Source: Natrarchaeobaculum sulfurireducens (GTDB lineage: Archaea; Halobacteriota; Halobacteria; Halobacteriales; Natrialbaceae). From it: a stretch of 64,000 nt of DNA. The notes under the pieces are model-generated. The model made no database searches, had not been told where the DNA came from, and worked only from the letters and a program-made list of their open reading frames with translations. Within the stretch, counting starts at the first letter, position 1. Every line of letters begins with the position of its first letter. The DNA lies in assembly GCF_003430825.1 (NCBI RefSeq), contig NZ_CP024047.1:1-64000 (forward strand), read 5' to 3'. A program made the position numbers and the translations under genes. Positions 179 to 33,382 of the stretch are shown in pieces.

Positions 179-200
179 GTTCCAGTAGAAACGAAGGGGT
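179..200 (+). promoter_or_regulatory. Origin recognition box (ORB A) with G-string
   Basis: The box has the core GAAACGAAGGGGT preceded by a TTCCA half and followed by an uninterrupted run of G to position 207. This matches the haloarchaeal ORB pattern (TTCCA, then GAAACGA, then a G-string), which binds Orc1/Cdc6. It points rightward, toward orc1, and borders the AT-rich core. Confidence 0.8.
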
Positions 201-505: not shown

Positions 506-762
506 AGAGTCCGAGAGCCGCGTGGTTCGAGACCGAAACGCGTCGGCCTGTGACCGACAAATCCTCTTCCCGCGTATGATTATTATTGTATCTCGATCCA
601 TCCACCGTACCTCTGTCCATCGGTTGCCCTCCCCTCGATACGAACGGTCAAGTCGGAGCCAGTCGTCTCGTCCGAGAACTGAAGGGAAGAATTTAATATC
701 AATGTCTTCCTCTGGTTCGTTTGCATCAACTGGATCCGTGCCAGGTAACCGAGATCGTAAAT

Positions 763-777
763 GGGCCAACGTGGCCC
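763..777. promoter_or_regulatory. Perfect dyad GGGCCA-3-TGGCCC before orc1
   Basis: Arms GGGCCA (763-768) and TGGCCC (772-777) are exact reverse complements around ACG. The dyad lies 70 bases before the orc1 start and may be an operator or part of the origin architecture. No binding protein can be named. Confidence 0.4.
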
Positions 778-812
778 GTCTATCGCGTCTAAAATCCACT
801 CCCGGTGCAGGA

Positions 813-834
813 TCTCCAGTCGAAATGAGGGGGT
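813..834 (+). promoter_or_regulatory. ORB C immediately before orc1
   Basis: The sequence TCTCCAGTCGAAATGAGGGG followed by GT resembles the ORB pattern and ends 13 bases before the orc1 start codon. Orc1 bound here would sit over the region where the transcript is expected to begin, which suggests possible autoregulation (inference). Confidence 0.6.
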
Positions 835-847
835 ACGAATACGACGA

Positions 848-2593
848 ATGTCAGACGACGAAACGCAGCCACCAGATCGAGACGGCCTCGAGATCGAGGG
901 TAGCGCCGGGTTCTCCTCACATCTCGAGGGAACGGACCTCGATGAGGAGGAATCGAACCAGGGATTGTTCGACGACCTGTTGAGCGGCGAACCGATCTTC
1001 GATAACAAGGAAGTCCTCCGTCCATCGTATACTCCACACGAACTCCCCCATCGGAGCGACCAGATCAACAAGATGGCGACGATCCTCGTCGCCGCCCTTC
1101 GTGGCGAAACGCCATCGAACATCTTGATCTACGGAAAGACGGGCACTGGAAAGACCGCCAGCGCGAAGTTCGTCAGCAAGGAACTCGAGAGCACCTCCCA
1201 GAAGTATAGCGTCCCCTGTGACGTCGAGTACATCAACTGTGAGGTCACGGACACCCAGTACCGCGTTCTCGCACAGCTAGCGAACAAGTTCATAGAGAAG
1301 AACGAGGCCCGGATCGACGATCAAGTCGCCTCGCTCGAGGGTGTCCTCGAGGCGATCGACGAGTACGAGGCGGCCAACGAGTCCGAAACCGATACCCACG
1401 TTGAAGATCAGTCGGCCGACGATCCGTTCGACTATCTGGACTCGACGACACCGACGTCGACCGACTCCCCCACCGGTTCGAGTGGATCGAACAACGGCCG
1501 GTCGACCAGCCCTGGTAGCGAGTCTCCACCTGAAACGGAGGGGTATCGACAACCGGTTGACTCTGACAGCGAACACGGGGAGGGGCCGACGGCTTCCACG
1601 GACGACGGGCCGGACGCACCCGCACATCCGCTAGCGTCGACGCCGTTCGACTCTCGGTCGGCCGTCGAAGCGCGCATCGAAGCACTCGAGGACGACAAAG
1701 CGTCGTTCGAGGAGGTGCCGATGACCGGCTGGCCGACCGACCGCGTCTACAGCGTCTTTTTCGACGCCGTCGATTACGACGAACGCGTCGTCGTCATCAT
1801 GCTCGACGAGATCGACAAACTCGTCGAAAAAAGCGGCGACGACACGCTCTATAACCTTTCGCGGATGAACTCCGAACTCGAGAACTCACGCGTCTCGATC
1901 ATCGGGATCAGCAACGACCTCAAGTTCACCGACTTCCTCGACCCTCGCGTCAAATCCTCGCTCGGCGAAGAGGAGATCGTCTTCCCACCGTACGACGCGA
2001 ATCAGCTCAGGGATATTCTCGAGCATCGGTCGGATGTCGCGTTCAAAGACGGGGCGCTCTCGGACGACGTGATCCCACTGTGTGCGGCGTTTGCAGCACA
2101 GGAACACGGTGACGCCCGCCGCGCACTCGATCTCTTACGAACGGCAGGGGAACTCGCCGAACGATCCCAGGCCGAAACCGTCGACGAAGACCACGTTCGC
2201 CAGGCTCAGGACAAGATCGAACTCGACCGCGTCGTCGAGGTCGTCCGGACGCTTCCGACCCAGAGCAAACTGGTCCTCTTCTCGATCATCTCGCTCGAGA
2301 AAAACGGCGTCAAAAGCATCAATACTGGCGAGGTGTACAACATCTACAAGCGACTCTGTGAGGAGATCGAAGCCGACGTTCTCACTCAGCGACGGGTCAC
2401 GGACCTCATCAGCGAACTGGACATGCTCGGGATCGTCAACGCCGTCGTCGTCTCGAAGGGACGATACGGCCGCACCAAAGAGATCAGCCTCTCCGTTCCA
2501 CTCGATGAGACCGAAGCGGTCTTGCTCTCTGACTCGCGGCTGAGCGATATCGACGACGTCCAGCCGTTCGTTCAGGCCCGGTTCGAGAACTGA
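848..2593 (+). CDS. orc1: Orc1/Cdc6-family replication initiator
   Basis: This AAA+ ATPase recognises ORBs, melts the origin and helps load the MCM helicase. The 581-residue protein has Walker A GKTGTGKT at 96-103, Walker B ending MLDEID at 318-323, an arginine-sensor region and a C-terminal winged-helix domain (about 490-575). ATG 848 was chosen because the acidic reading MSDDETQ begins there; the longer upstream reading is Arg-rich and unlike a haloarchaeal N-terminus. Between the Walker motifs lies a Ser/Thr/Pro/Asp-rich low-complexity insert (about 176-275), common in haloarchaeal Orc1. That insert contains an ORB and an inverted partner in its DNA (1465-1544). Identification is very secure. 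Confidence 0.97.
   Translation: MSDDETQPPDRDGLEIEGSAGFSSHLEGTDLDEEESNQGLFDDLLSGEPIFDNKEVLRPSYTPHELPHRSDQINKMATILVAALRGETPSNILIYGKTGTGKTASAKFVSKELESTSQKYSVPCDVEYINCEVTDTQYRVLAQLANKFIEKNEARIDDQVASLEGVLEAIDEYEAANESETDTHVEDQSADDPFDYLDSTTPTSTDSPTGSSGSNNGRSTSPGSESPPETEGYRQPVDSDSEHGEGPTASTDDGPDAPAHPLASTPFDSRSAVEARIEALEDDKASFEEVPMTGWPTDRVYSVFFDAVDYDERVVVIMLDEIDKLVEKSGDDTLYNLSRMNSELENSRVSIIGISNDLKFTDFLDPRVKSSLGEEEIVFPPYDANQLRDILEHRSDVAFKDGALSDDVIPLCAAFAAQEHGDARRALDLLRTAGELAERSQAETVDEDHVRQAQDKIELDRVVEVVRTLPTQSKLVLFSIISLEKNGVKSINTGEVYNIYKRLCEEIEADVLTQRRVTDLISELDMLGIVNAVVVSKGRYGRTKEISLSVPLDETEAVLLSDSRLSDIDDVQPFVQARFEN
1465..1485 (-). promoter_or_regulatory. Inverted ORB-like arm inside orc1
   Basis: On the reverse strand this reads with core TCGAACCGGTGGGGG, about 14 of 18 matching the ORB at 1523 in opposite orientation. 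Its C-run at 1467-1471 lies exactly 56 bases before the forward ORB, the same distance as for the pair inside the DP1 gene. Confidence 0.5.
1523..1544 (+). promoter_or_regulatory. ORB inside the orc1 coding sequence
   Basis: The core CACCTGAAACGGAGGGGT matches the intergenic ORB beside tRNA-Gln at 20 of 22 positions over the full box. It encodes SPPETEG in the disordered insert of Orc1, where protein constraint should be weak. Confidence 0.75.
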
Positions 2594-4085: not shown

Positions 4086-5702
4086 GTGCCACTCGAGGTG
4101 ACCGCCCGGATCGTCAGCGAACTCACGAGTCGTGGCTACAACGTCGAGCGCGAAGCCGTCACGAAACTCGCCGCCGTCGCCAATCCGGATGCGGCACTCG
4201 AGCGAGTCGTCGAGGACCTTCCGGAGGACACGCTGGTCGTTCGGACCGAACACGTCGATGCGATCCTTTCGAACGGTGACGCCCACACGACCGGAGCGGC
4301 CCAGCGAAACGACGACCAGCCAGGCGTCGACTCCGATGGCGCTGGCGCTATGCGTTCGGTCGGGGCGACCGACGGCGATTCGACCCCCTCCGGTTCGACT
4401 GCAAACACCCCGTCGACGGTGGGTGGATCTGCGGATCAATCTCCAGGTGAAACGAAGGGGTCGAAGCCCGGTTCCGGTCGGTCGACCGACCCCGACTTGC
4501 GCTCGCTCGAAATCGCCAACGACATGACCGGTGAGAGTACAGGAACGGGCGAGTACGAAGACTTCGTCGCCGTCTTTCGCGACCGTCTCGAGCGACTCGG
4601 TTCCAAACTCAGGGGACGAGTCAACCACCGGCCGGCGACTGCGATCCAGGACATGCCCGGCGGCGAGGAGGTCGCCATGGTCGGGCTGGTCAACGACGTG
4701 CGATCGACGGCGAGCGGCCACTGGCTGGTCGAACTCGAGGACGCCACCGGGACGTTCCCGTGGCTCGTCATGAAAGATCGGGAGTATGCCGACCTCGTCG
4801 AAGAACTGCTCTGTGATGAGGTGTTGGCGATGGAGGGGACACTCTCGGGGGATTCGGGAATTGCGTTCGTCGATTCGATGTTCTTTCCGGACGTCCCGCG
4901 CACTCACGAGCCATCGACGGCGGATCGACACGTTCAGGCAGCGCTGATCAGCGACGTCCACGTCGGGAGCCAGGAGTTCATGCACGACGCCTGGAACCGC
5001 TTTACCGATTGGCTCCACACGCCCGAGGCTCAGCACGTCGAGTACCTGCTGATCGCCGGTGACATGGTCGAGGGCGTCGGCGTCTATCCCAACCAGGACG
5101 AAGAACTCGACGTCGTCGACATCTACGAGCAGTACGAGGTCTTCAACGAGTACCTCAAGCAGGTCCCCGGAAACATCGAGATGGTCATGATTCCCGGTAA
5201 CCACGACGCGGTCCGGCTGGCCGAACCCCAGCCTGGCTTCGACGACGACCTCCGCGAGATCATGTCCGCACACGACGCTCGTATCGTAAGTAACCCCTCG
5301 ATGGTCACGCTCGAGGGCGTTTCCGTGCTAATGTATCACGGCGTCAGTCTCGACGAGGTGATCGCCGAACTCCCCGAGGAGAAAGCAAGCTACGACGAGC
5401 CACACAAGGCGATGTACCAGCTGTTAAAAAAGCGCCACGTTGCCCCACAGTTCGGGGGCCATACCCGGCTCGCTCCCGAGGAGAAAGATTACCTCATTAT
5501 CGACGAGGTGCCCGACATCTTCCATACGGGCCACGTTCACAAACTCGGTTTCGGCAAGTATCACAACGTGCTCGCGATGAACTCGGGTTGCTGGCAGGCC
5601 CAGACCGACTTCCAGAAGAGCGTCAACATCAACCCGGACTCGGGATATGCTCCGATCGTCGATCTGGACACCCTCGACGTCACCGTCCAGAAGTTCAGCT
5701 AG
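4086..5702 (+). CDS. polB: DNA polymerase D small subunit (DP1)
   Basis: DP1 is the proofreading 3'-5' exonuclease subunit of the euryarchaeal replicative polymerase PolD. The reading from GTG 4086 (VPLEVTARIVSELTSRGYN) matches the usual N-terminus; a longer in-frame extension to 3921 lacks that character. The 538 residues comprise an N-terminal helical domain, a low-complexity linker (about 75-150), an OB-fold (about 190-275) and a calcineurin-like phosphoesterase domain with SDVHVG (about 289), GDMVEG, PGNHDA (about 369), YHG and GHVHKLG metal-binding motifs. An ORB pair lies in DNA encoding the linker. It ends convergently with the small gene at 5699, the stop codons sharing CTAG. Confidence 0.95.
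   Translation: MPLEVTARIVSELTSRGYNVEREAVTKLAAVANPDAALERVVEDLPEDTLVVRTEHVDAILSNGDAHTTGAAQRNDDQPGVDSDGAGAMRSVGATDGDSTPSGSTANTPSTVGGSADQSPGETKGSKPGSGRSTDPDLRSLEIANDMTGESTGTGEYEDFVAVFRDRLERLGSKLRGRVNHRPATAIQDMPGGEEVAMVGLVNDVRSTASGHWLVELEDATGTFPWLVMKDREYADLVEELLCDEVLAMEGTLSGDSGIAFVDSMFFPDVPRTHEPSTADRHVQAALISDVHVGSQEFMHDAWNRFTDWLHTPEAQHVEYLLIAGDMVEGVGVYPNQDEELDVVDIYEQYEVFNEYLKQVPGNIEMVMIPGNHDAVRLAEPQPGFDDDLREIMSAHDARIVSNPSMVTLEGVSVLMYHGVSLDEVIAELPEEKASYDEPHKAMYQLLKKRHVAPQFGGHTRLAPEEKDYLIIDEVPDIFHTGHVHKLGFGKYHNVLAMNSGCWQAQTDFQKSVNINPDSGYAPIVDLDTLDVTVQKFS
4383..4401 (-). promoter_or_regulatory. Inverted ORB-like arm inside the DP1 gene
   Basis: On the reverse strand the core TCGAACCGGAGGGGGT matches ORB form at about 13 of 17 positions and shares TCGAACCGG plus a G-run with the arm in orc1. 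Its C-run starts 56 bases before the forward ORB at 4440. Confidence 0.5.
4440..4461 (+). promoter_or_regulatory. ORB inside the DP1 coding sequence
   Basis: The box with core CAGGTGAAACGAAGGGGT agrees at 19 of 22 positions with both the ORB inside orc1 and the ORB by tRNA-Gln. It encodes SPGETKG in the disordered linker, in the same reading frame as the ORB in orc1. Confidence 0.75.
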
Positions 5703-30680: not shown

Positions 30681-30744
30681 ACCCGGTGGTGTGTGAGAGA
30701 GGGGAAAAGGCGTGTCGGTTCGCGGGTTCATCTCGAGTCCCCGA

Positions 30745-30752
30745 TTTTATAA
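30745..30752 (+). promoter_or_regulatory. TATA box of the HNH-module gene
   Basis: TTTTATAA is centred 27 bases before GTG 30776, predicting a leaderless transcript and fixing the start. Confidence 0.65.
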
Positions 30753-30775
30753 CCGATGACGCGACCAACAGGGGT

Positions 30776-31567
30776 GTGACGACGAAACGGGAGTGTCTGG
30801 ACGCCTTGCGTGGGGCTGCCGACCAGCTCGGAAAGTCGCCGACGAAGGCGGAGTACGAGGAGCTAGGGCTAACGCCTGCTTCAGCGACAATCATTCGGAC
30901 GGTCGGCGGGTGGAACGAGGCGAAAGGGCTAGCCGGGCTCGAGACGTATTCCTCGCGAGGGCCTCGGGTTAGTCCGCCTCCCGACGACATCCAACTCCCA
31001 AACGACACGTCGTGGGACGAACTGAGCGTCGATCAGCGGTGGCACTACCGAAACGCCGAGTGGAACACCGAGCGGTCGCTACGTCGTCGTGCCCGACACA
31101 GACGATGGCTCAACGATTACAAACGCAGATGTGCATGTCACTCCTGTGGCGTAGACACTGTTGCCTGTCTCGACTTTCATCACGTATCGGCACGAACCAA
31201 GCGGATGAGCGTTGGTCGTATGATCACGTATGGATATGGCAAGGACGGTATCTGGGATGAAATCCAAAAGTGTGTCGTCCTCTGTGCGAACTGCCATCGA
31301 GTCACTCATTGCGACCCACCGGAACGTGAACTGAAACAGTGGGTCTGGGAACGGAAACAGATAGCAGGTGGATGCGCCCGGTGTGAGGAAAATCGACCAG
31401 CGTGTTTGGACTTCCACCATACTACGGACGAGAAAGAAGCGACAGTCGCATCATTGACCTCCGAAAACCGGTCGAAAAAGCGGATACAGGCGGAGATTGA
31501 TCGATGTACCGTCCTCTGTGCGAACTGCCATAGAATAGAGCACTACGTGCCACCTTATCGGGACTAG
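30776..31567 (+). CDS. Putative endonuclease with two tandem HNH-type modules
   Basis: A 263-residue protein. The first 55 residues (ECLDALRGAADQLGKSPTKA, then a GGWNEAKGLAGL end) match the homing-endonuclease-associated repeat. A basic helix (about 95-125) follows. Two related modules come next: CHSCGVDTVACLDFHH with CVVLCANCHRVTH, and CARCEENRPACLDFHH with CTVLCANCHRIEH. Each has two CxxC pairs around a DFHH histidine, the layout of an HNH-type nuclease with a zinc knuckle. GTG 30776 is supported by its TATA box. Base use is somewhat AT-richer than neighbours, consistent with transfer. Confidence 0.78.
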   Translation: MTTKRECLDALRGAADQLGKSPTKAEYEELGLTPASATIIRTVGGWNEAKGLAGLETYSSRGPRVSPPPDDIQLPNDTSWDELSVDQRWHYRNAEWNTERSLRRRARHRRWLNDYKRRCACHSCGVDTVACLDFHHVSARTKRMSVGRMITYGYGKDGIWDEIQKCVVLCANCHRVTHCDPPERELKQWVWERKQIAGGCARCEENRPACLDFHHTTDEKEATVASLTSENRSKKRIQAEIDRCTVLCANCHRIEHYVPPYRD

Positions 31568-31752: not shown

Positions 31753-31825
31753 AGTCCATTGGGGTAGTGGCCAATCCTGAAGCCTTCTGGGGGCTTCGAC
31801 CCTGGTTCGAATCCAGGATGGACTA
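31753..31825 (+). tRNA. tRNA-Gln (anticodon CTG)
   Basis: A 73-nt cloverleaf without CCA. The acceptor AGTCCAT pairs with ATGGACT, followed by the discriminator A; the T arm is CCTGG, TTCGAAT, CCAGG; the anticodon stem AAGCC with GGCTT encloses TTCTGGG, giving CTG, which reads CAG glutamine codons. No intron is visible. It is the only tRNA gene in the window and is followed by an ORB-like pair. Confidence 0.95.
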
Positions 31826-31832
31826 CTTCTCT

Positions 31833-31845
31833 ACCGCTTCGCTTC
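31833..31845 (-). promoter_or_regulatory. Inverted ORB-like core after tRNA-Gln
   Basis: The reverse strand reads GAAGCGAAGCGGTAGAG across 31829-31845, matching ORB B of the origin (GAAGCGAAGGGGTAGAG) at all but one position and the canonical core at 11 of 13. It is the inverted partner of the box at 31873. Confidence 0.4.
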
Positions 31846-31872
31846 GACAATGTTGGTAGCCGCCTCTATCGG

Positions 31873-31894
31873 TTTCCACCTGAAACGAAGGGGT
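31873..31894 (+). promoter_or_regulatory. Isolated ORB between tRNA-Gln and OYE-like gene
   Basis: The core CACCTGAAACGAAGGGGT is the best consensus ORB of the window, 20 of 22 identical to the box within orc1. It lies 30 kb from the origin in a 106-bp gap. Orc1 may bind here, as a titration site or dormant origin (inference). Confidence 0.7.
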
Positions 31895-31931: not shown

Positions 31932-33275
31932 TCACTGTCGATTTTGGTCGTACGCTCCCTCACGCTCGAGGACACCGCGCCGTCGTAACACGCTCGGTGT
32001 TCGACAGATACCGGGAGCGCCGGTCGCCTGCGGGACGGTACAGTTGTTGCAGTTCTCACAGAGGACGGTCGGGTCGTCGTCGCTCGAGTGCAACAACCGA
32101 GCACCGAGCCGTGGCTCCGCGTAGAACGGACGGGCGAGCCCGACGGCGTCACATGCCGGTTCAGTCCCGCTCGAGCCGTCACCAAGCAGCCGATCCATCT
32201 GCCCGCGCTCGCGGATCCCGCCCTCCGCCAGGACGGGGATCGACACCTCGTCTCTCACTCGGCGACAGAACGCCTCGTTCCAGGCCGGTTCGAAGTCGTA
32301 CTGCAGCGACTCCACGCGATTGCCGAGGGCGACGAGTCGTTTCCGAACGGGGCCGCCGAAGGCCGCGTCGTACCCCTCCTGTAGCGCCTCGTTCTCCCAG
32401 GCTCGAGCGGGGTACTCGCCACGGACGATGCTCATATCCCAGACGACCGACGTCAGGACGGGGACGACGGCGTCGTAGCCGATCGTCTCGAGGCGGCGGG
32501 CGATTTCGACGCCGTCGGCGAGCGAGAGCTTCCGCCGTACCAGCGGCGACGGCGGCGCGGGGGTCTCTGCGGGGACTTTGGTCACGAGCGGGATGTCCCC
32601 CGCCCGGTCGCGGATCTCGTCGTGAACGAGCGCGAGAAACTCGAGGCGGGCCTCGGGTGAGCCGCCGAACTCGTCGTCGCGACGGTTGTAAAACGGCGAG
32701 AGGAACTGCTGGACGATCCCCATGTTCGCCCCCGAGATGTGGATCCCGTCGTAGCCGGCGTCGGCGGCGTAGGCGGCCGAGCGGCCGAAGTCAGCTGCGA
32801 GATCGTACACCTCCTCGGTCGAGAGGACGTGGGGGTCGTACGAGAGCGCTCCCACGCGATCGAACAGTCGCAGTTGCCACGGGAGTTCGGAGACGGCGAG
32901 TTGCTCGAGTTCGGGGTGTTTGCGGCGGTACTCGGCGTTCCAGGTCTCCATGCTCCGCAGGCCGCCGTGTTCGAGCTGGATGAAGATGCGGCTCCCGTGG
33001 TCGTGAACCCGGTCGGTCAGCCGCGACAGCCGCGAGACGAACGCGGGGTCGTGGACGCGGGTCATCCCCGGTGCGGCACAGCCGCCCTCGCCCTGGACGA
33101 TCGTCGCGCCCTGAAAGAGCAGTCCCACGCCGGATTTGGCGGCGGGCTCGAGTTCCTCGATCAGCGTCTCGACTGCGTCCGGCCCGTTGCCCGCACACTC
33201 GAGCAGCGGTGCCCGGTAGAGCCGGTTCGGGACCGTCACGTCGCCGATCTCGAATGGGTCCTCGAGGGTGGCCAT
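31932..33275 (-). CDS. NADH:flavin oxidoreductase (OYE-like)
   Basis: A 447-residue TIM-barrel FMN enzyme of the old yellow enzyme family. Signs are the N-terminal DPFEIGDVTVPNRLYRAPL, IFIQLEHGG, GYDGIHISGANMGIVQQFLSPFYNRRDDEFGGS, and VGLARPFYAEP. Near the end CENCNNC plus a later Cys (GICR) could bind an iron-sulfur cluster as in 2,4-dienoyl-CoA reductases, but the C-terminal NAD(P) domains of those proteins are missing. ATG 33275 (MATLEDPF) fits the family. The substrate is unknown, presumably an activated alkene. Confidence 0.85.
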   Translation of the reverse strand: MATLEDPFEIGDVTVPNRLYRAPLLECAGNGPDAVETLIEELEPAAKSGVGLLFQGATIVQGEGGCAAPGMTRVHDPAFVSRLSRLTDRVHDHGSRIFIQLEHGGLRSMETWNAEYRRKHPELEQLAVSELPWQLRLFDRVGALSYDPHVLSTEEVYDLAADFGRSAAYAADAGYDGIHISGANMGIVQQFLSPFYNRRDDEFGGSPEARLEFLALVHDEIRDRAGDIPLVTKVPAETPAPPSPLVRRKLSLADGVEIARRLETIGYDAVVPVLTSVVWDMSIVRGEYPARAWENEALQEGYDAAFGGPVRKRLVALGNRVESLQYDFEPAWNEAFCRRVRDEVSIPVLAEGGIRERGQMDRLLGDGSSGTEPACDAVGLARPFYAEPRLGARLLHSSDDDPTVLCENCNNCTVPQATGAPGICRTPSVLRRRGVLEREGAYDQNRQ

Positions 33276-33382
33276 AGCCCGTCTATTACGGGTGTACACA
33301 AGAGCGTAGCGTCGGTGGGCGAAAACGGCTCTCGTGAGTCGGTGTCCGTAGACATATCTGTCAGCTCGCCGTTCGAACGGGC

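Follow-up and report, generated by a model that had tools for sequence, protein, structure and literature searches.

What does a pair of inverted origin recognition boxes (ORBs) do beside a tRNA gene, tens of kilobases away from the replication origin that such boxes normally serve? The question arises in Natrarchaeobaculum sulfurireducens (genome size 3.79 Mb), in a window, meaning the whole stretch of DNA analyzed here, that spans positions 1 to 64,000 of a 3,521,804-bp haloarchaeal chromosome (G000:C3), beginning at the origin oriC1. An earlier sequence-only reading had noticed a near-consensus ORB and an inverted ORB-like core beside tRNA-Gln and placed them 30 kb from the origin, which is right: oriC1 lies at the window start, with orc1 at 761-2593. 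It offered three explanations, namely a dormant origin, an initiator-titration site like bacterial datA, and the trace of a replicon integrated at the tRNA gene. By comparing the locus among related genomes, we arrived at the view that the composite element is a putative Orc1-binding distal control locus of oriC1, acting by titration or in a datA-like manner, and we put the chance that this view is correct at about even. Among the three original explanations, only the datA-like one remains likely.

A full ORB and an inverted partner downstream of tRNA-Gln

The element sits in the gap between tRNA-Gln(CTG) and a convergent flavin mononucleotide (FMN)-oxidoreductase gene. Its parts and the tRNA gene are as follows.

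31753..31826, plus strand: tRNA-Gln (anticodon CTG), whose 3' flank carries the element (ARAGORN, Rfam RF00005)
31837..31848, minus strand: inverted partner, an ORB dyad half without conserved G-string (placed by its offset and invariant positions in relatives)
31849..31872, no strand: spacer, 24 bp, fixed in length, not conserved in sequence, mean 39% AT (family comparison)
31873..31894, plus strand: full ORB with G-string (TTTCCACCTGAAACGAAGGGG + T; exact consensus match)

The full ORB is of the oriC1 type and is a putative Orc1 site. The sequence TTTCCACCTGAAACGAAGGGG at 31873-31893 on the plus strand has 0 mismatches to the oriC1-type pattern TTTCCANNTGAAACGAAGGGG, so the box first described as near-consensus is an exact match, and it consists of the two parts that define such a box, the dyad half TTTCCANNNGAAA and then the G-string CGAAGGGG. 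When up to 3 mismatches were allowed, 4 ORB matches were found in the window, compared with 0.02 expected by chance.

The partner is a conserved dyad 12-mer at 31837-31848, with the consensus TTTCGACTCGAG and the sequence CTTCGCTTCGAC in this genome, that starts exactly 36 bp before the ORB. Read as the reverse complement, it is GTCGAAGCGAAG here and CTCGAGTCGAAA in the family consensus on that strand. A free search for TTTCGACTCGAG between tRNA and ORB gave a mean best match of 10.4/12, versus 6.6 in shuffles, and in 48 of 54 family genomes the partner start, with the offset left free, fell 36 or 37 bp upstream of the ORB. The fixed positions of an ORB, TC-A---GAA, were invariant in the partner of 51/51 genomes. 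In Halorubrum, which belongs to another family, the partner lies exactly 36 bp before the ORB in all 11 of 11 cases and is GTTCCAGTCGAAG-like, nearer still to an ORB. The distance from tRNA to partner drifts (standard deviation, 2.5 bp), whereas the partner-ORB spacing is steady, with about 37 bp from dyad center to dyad center; the standard deviation of 0.27 calculated for the pair spacing covers only offsets of 36-37, and the fair test is the free search. An inverted half had been recognized earlier at 31833-31845, where GAAGCGAAGCGGTAGAG (31829-31845, minus strand) shares 16/17 bases with the origin site 493-509. The half is real, but its register is not the one suggested by this likeness, which is not kept in relatives; the conserved register is 31837-31848. 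We also considered whether a partner is a general feature of ORBs and rejected this idea, as no partner was found at -36 from the origin ORBs or the other satellite ORBs of the genus.

Two further inverted ORB pairs occur within coding regions of the window, one in orc1 (1468-1486, minus strand, and 1525-1543, plus strand) and one in the DNA polymerase II small-subunit gene (4385-4403, minus strand, and 4442-4460, plus strand). Both measure 57 bp start to start, which we reckon as 48 bp between dyad centers, 11 bp (about one helical turn) longer than the tRNA-Gln pair. ORB pairs with the 57-bp spacing are also present in two relatives (G001 and G003), although coding constraint may confound this comparison.

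The pair is conserved as one unit and is separable from the tRNA gene

Comparison of the tRNA-Gln locus in related genomes had been proposed as a check, with absence from all relatives as the unfavorable outcome; we found instead that the pair is kept. The ORB adjoins tRNA-Gln in 4/4 genomes of the genus, and in 54 of 61 family genomes, representing 26 genera, it starts 36-51 bp past the tRNA-Gln end, always on the tRNA strand. When these loci are aligned on the ORB, most ORB columns are invariant and most flanking columns fall below 0.6 bit. An ORB beside tRNA-Gln is also found in named Natrinema, Natrialba, Natronococcus, Halorubrum, Haloferax, and Halobaculum genomes, and in another family (f10) it lies near tRNA-Gln in the opposite orientation.

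At the loci L168, L173, L181, L180, L200, and L205 we noted two other associations. The flipped ORB of f10 often comes immediately after a small convergent gene, adjoining its stop codon, and in family f8 the ORB follows a gene ending ...RERVALLDVEK, presumably Cgi121-like as judged by eye, with which it stays where the tRNA is 1-7 kb off.

A search for the composite pattern found it in 98 of 125 family genomes, at one locus each (on two contigs in one genome), and the reversed-pattern control gave 0 composites in the same 125 genomes. The window's own copy falls outside this pattern because its partner is degenerate. Further genomes from the composite list that we inspected all carry it at tRNA-Gln, except two. 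Three genomes scored as lacking an ORB at the tRNA carry the composite elsewhere, 3 kb away in G053, 15 kb away in G021, and 1.6 kb away in G013, where it is degenerate and below the limit of the search pattern. That the composite persists away from the tRNA speaks for selection on the pair itself and against a tRNA terminator.

These observations bear on the possibility that the element regulates transcription at the tRNA-Gln locus, with bound Orc1 serving as a terminator, a roadblock, or an insulator against the convergent gene. Such a role would fit the fixed 3' side, the orientation relative to tRNA-Gln that is fixed in the main family, and the overlap of the partner with the T-rich trailer region. 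It fits poorly with a unit that remains intact 3-15 kb from the tRNA in G053 and G021, with a tRNA distance that drifts when the pair spacing does not, and with the flipped ORB of f10. Moreover, the identity of the gene convergent to tRNA-Gln differs from family to family, and similar ORBs are found within coding regions near the origin. We regard a transcriptional role as unlikely.

ORBs of this type are confined to the oriC1 region

The oriC1 features to which the element is compared are listed below.

761..2593, plus strand: orc1, the oriC1 initiator gene and presumed source of the element-binding protein (Pfam Cdc6_C, Cdc6_lid)
179..199, plus strand: right-hand ORB of oriC1
Chromosome 3521683-3521703, minus strand: left-hand ORB of oriC1, beyond the window

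The core TCCANNNGAAACGNNGGGG has 7 exact matches genome-wide, all on this chromosome, in a range from -82 kb to +98.6 kb relative to oriC1. Apart from the core at tRNA-Gln, the distances to the origin are -82, -0.1, 0.2, 1.5, 4.4, and 98.6 kb; no exact core was found elsewhere in the 3.79-Mb genome. The element can therefore be called isolated, as it was, only in a local sense, given six other exact cores around the origin; the even genome-wide spread that had been named as evidence against a special role of the pair was not seen, with all 7 cores within 100 kb of oriC1. It is because such ORBs are confined to the orc1 region that we infer Orc1 specificity for the element.

The pattern of ORB clustering recurs across families, although P values for it overstate independence because the genomes are related. 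Among the matches listed, 276 ORBs in 85 genomes, 175 lie within 6 kb of orc1, 96 are on the orc1 contig but more distant, and the remaining 5 lie on different contigs. The satellite and polarity counts that follow refer to genomes among these matches. On near-complete chromosomes, 55 of 58 satellites (>6 kb from orc1) lie within 300 kb, 51/58 within 150 kb (8.9% expected), and 44/58 within 100 kb. The tRNA-Gln gene is itself mostly syntenic with orc1, within 100 kb of it on 38 of 44 near-complete chromosomes and at ~11 kb in Haloferax, where coordinates were compared by hand.

In this genome, every one of the seven exact cores has outward polarity relative to the origin. In f10, tRNA and ORB are flipped together, so that the ORB still faces outward. 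In several f1 genomes with inversions and in Halorubrum the ORB points inward, and the outward fraction was 28/34 for tRNA sites and 37/62 for other satellites. A strict polarity rule tied to fork direction is rejected on these grounds.

Clustering and polarity could point to an anchoring or segregation site, in which Orc1 bound at several ORBs within ~100 kb would mark or organize the origin domain in the manner of bacterial ParB-parS clusters. Satellite ORBs do cluster around oriC1 far past the origin itself (44/58 within 100 kb), and here each of the 7 exact cores is within that distance and points outward. Elsewhere, however, outward polarity is no rule, there are few sites per genome, and we know of no segregation role for Orc1 in haloarchaea. 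An anchoring function thus seems to us improbable, to a similar degree as the transcriptional one.

Several other features drew our attention in their own right. The ORB TCTCCATGCGAAACGAAGGGG (L005, 1501-1521; chromosome 98630-98650) lies ~95 bp upstream of an open reading frame (ORF) that we take to encode an HtpX-like protease. Many family genomes (among the matches listed) have ORB versions with TCCATGC or TCCATCC at distances of ~95-295 kb from orc1. In G034:C1 (1725473 and 1885604-1885959), some 160 kb separate orc1 from a divergent ORB pair resembling the oriC1 core, which suggests that a rearrangement split the initiator gene from the origin. The Orc1 protein encoded in the window contains a long stretch between its AAA+ match (about residues 94-222) and the lid domain (417-484), and many relatives' Orc1 proteins align only from residue ~210-290 onward, suggesting a variable insertion or N-terminal region.

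The locus lacks an unwinding element and an adjacent orc gene

We next asked whether the inverted pair could be a dormant or weak replication origin. The resemblance to oriC1-type origins with ORBs (PMC3528665), including the ORB3-DNA unwinding element-ORB2 arrangement of Sulfolobus (PMC12141716), is clear in that the ORB consensus with its G-string and the inverted layout are shared, and the relative orientation, with G-strings outward, is the same as at oriC1. However, no AT-rich unwinding element is present between the two boxes; the 24-bp gap has a mean of 39% AT (flank, 38%), whereas the AT content at oriC1 reaches 70% over 60 bp. No change in GC skew occurs at the element. The neighbors are tRNA-Gln, an ORF with HNH repeats, and the FMN oxidoreductase gene; no orc/cdc6 gene is adjacent, and orc1 is 29 kb off. 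By comparison, the only dormant origin studied in haloarchaea requires the cdc6 gene next to it (PMC4595724). With ORBs a few turns apart, there would also be little room for helicase loading. Because an AT-rich element, an adjacent orc gene, and a skew change are all missing, an origin is unlikely, and we disfavor the dormant-origin explanation, leaving it only a slim chance.

The third explanation sees in the element what is left of a replicon that had inserted at tRNA-Gln, and it draws on the frequent use of tRNA genes as integration sites. In a few genomes, short stretches of the tRNA 3' end are indeed duplicated near tRNA-Gln. At G075:C1:14881, G108:C1:2499924, and G110:C59:43707, 21-23 bases of the tRNA-Gln 3' end are repeated perfectly at a distance of no more than ~300 bp from the tRNA, the kind of mark that integration at this tRNA leaves. 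Against this, genera and families share the element as an ancestral, single-copy feature at a syntenic position, the only plasmid match covers mostly the tRNA, and an integrated replicon would be expected to bring an orc gene. The composite was absent from 80 viral contigs fetched with the ORB core, none of which had a partner above 7/12; the scan gave 117 core matches, about as many as we estimate would arise by chance for a 15-base pattern in the collection scanned. We therefore reject a mobile or viral source, and we consider an integrated-replicon trace highly improbable, the least probable of the explanations weighed here.

The remaining neighborhood offers the following feature and observations.

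31932..33299, minus strand: NADH:flavin oxidoreductase family gene, convergent neighbor (ORF call, Pfam PF00724)

The ORF directly upstream of tRNA-Gln (30686-31567) has an HNH_repeat domain, which is associated with homing endonucleases. ARAGORN also called a tRNA-Thr at 33020-33108, on the coding strand within the FMN-oxidoreductase gene, which is probably a false positive. At the element itself, Rfam reported the tRNA only and no other structured RNA.

A putative distal control locus of oriC1

How could such a pair influence oriC1? The element places initiator boxes outside the origin at a conserved position, as a titration or datA-like locus does. We envision that the locus is duplicated soon after the origin fires and that Orc1 would then bind the element as an inverted pair. 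The free Orc1 available for refiring oriC1 may be lowered by sequestration, or two Orc1 molecules may be placed for inactivation, or both. Orc1 binding, joint binding of two molecules, and a negative effect on initiation are thus predictions of this proposal. Two sites are few for a pure sink, and the rigid spacing points instead to a defined complex of two Orc1 molecules on the pair.

Several points weigh against a control locus. The G-string of the partner is not conserved. One strong site and one weak site provide small capacity for pure titration, so that a plain sink would need either scarce Orc1 or a catalytic effect. The site is missing in some genera (g9 in part and g11 in part), and at six Haloferax loci the ORB has no partner. 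Finally, the sampled genomes are related, and our counts are of non-independent events. The datA-like titration proposed by the sequence-only reading is nonetheless the best fit to a conserved, single-copy, origin-proximal, and origin-specific site without an unwinding element, as far as comparison of genomes can tell, with its capacity as the weak part.

A precedent for titration by extra-origin ORBs exists in Haloarcula hispanica, in which those of oriC2D titrate Cdc6E, as supported experimentally for oriC2 (PMC3936714). Like our element, oriC2D consists of haloarchaeal ORBs outside the origin and is proposed to titrate the initiator and restrain initiation; it has no origin activity of its own, and none is expected of our element. 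Unlike our element, oriC2D is a cluster of 11 ORBs in 722 bp directly beside its cdc6 gene and serves oriC2, whereas the element described here has one ORB and one half-ORB with rigid spacing, is widely conserved, and is found at a tRNA gene, typically tens of kb from oriC1.

DnaA is inactivated in E. coli by the locus datA, which is situated immediately downstream of the glyV-X-Y tRNA operon and responds to read-through from that operon (PMC10950094). This locus shares with our element the character of a non-coding initiator-box locus that lies apart from the origin yet on the same half of the chromosome, with a conserved position downstream of tRNA genes and a defined internal arrangement (PMC10950094, PMC4585315). 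It differs in having several boxes, in acting through DnaA and IHF rather than Orc1, and in promoting ATP-DnaA hydrolysis, for which a counterpart here is only proposed. Because the proteins and the DNA are unrelated, the element is not a member of the datA family, and the likeness would at most be convergence. DnaA-box clusters of Bacillus subtilis and Streptomyces, as cited in PMC10950094, are likewise dispersed initiator sites that restrain untimely initiation; they differ in being bacterial, DnaA based, and dispersed, in contrast to one inverted pair at one gene.

A more specific version of the control-locus proposal is that a datA-like switch evolved independently in haloarchaea. A rigid Orc1/Orc1 complex on the ORB/half-ORB pair would inactivate Orc1 after the locus is duplicated and would be reset when transcription reads through from the tRNA gene. 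Initiation at oriC1 would in this way be coupled to tRNA output, a link already proposed for datA in E. coli. This version is speculative, and we consider it rather improbable.

We did not find a description of this element in the literature searched, which was restricted to openly licensed papers. The limits that archaea place on initiation at oriC1 are poorly understood, and a single-copy, rigid, and widely conserved pair is a concrete candidate for a control element whose role is testable by deletion in genetically tractable haloarchaea. If the element is functional, its parallel with datA would suggest that two domains of life have convergently linked replication initiation to translation capacity.
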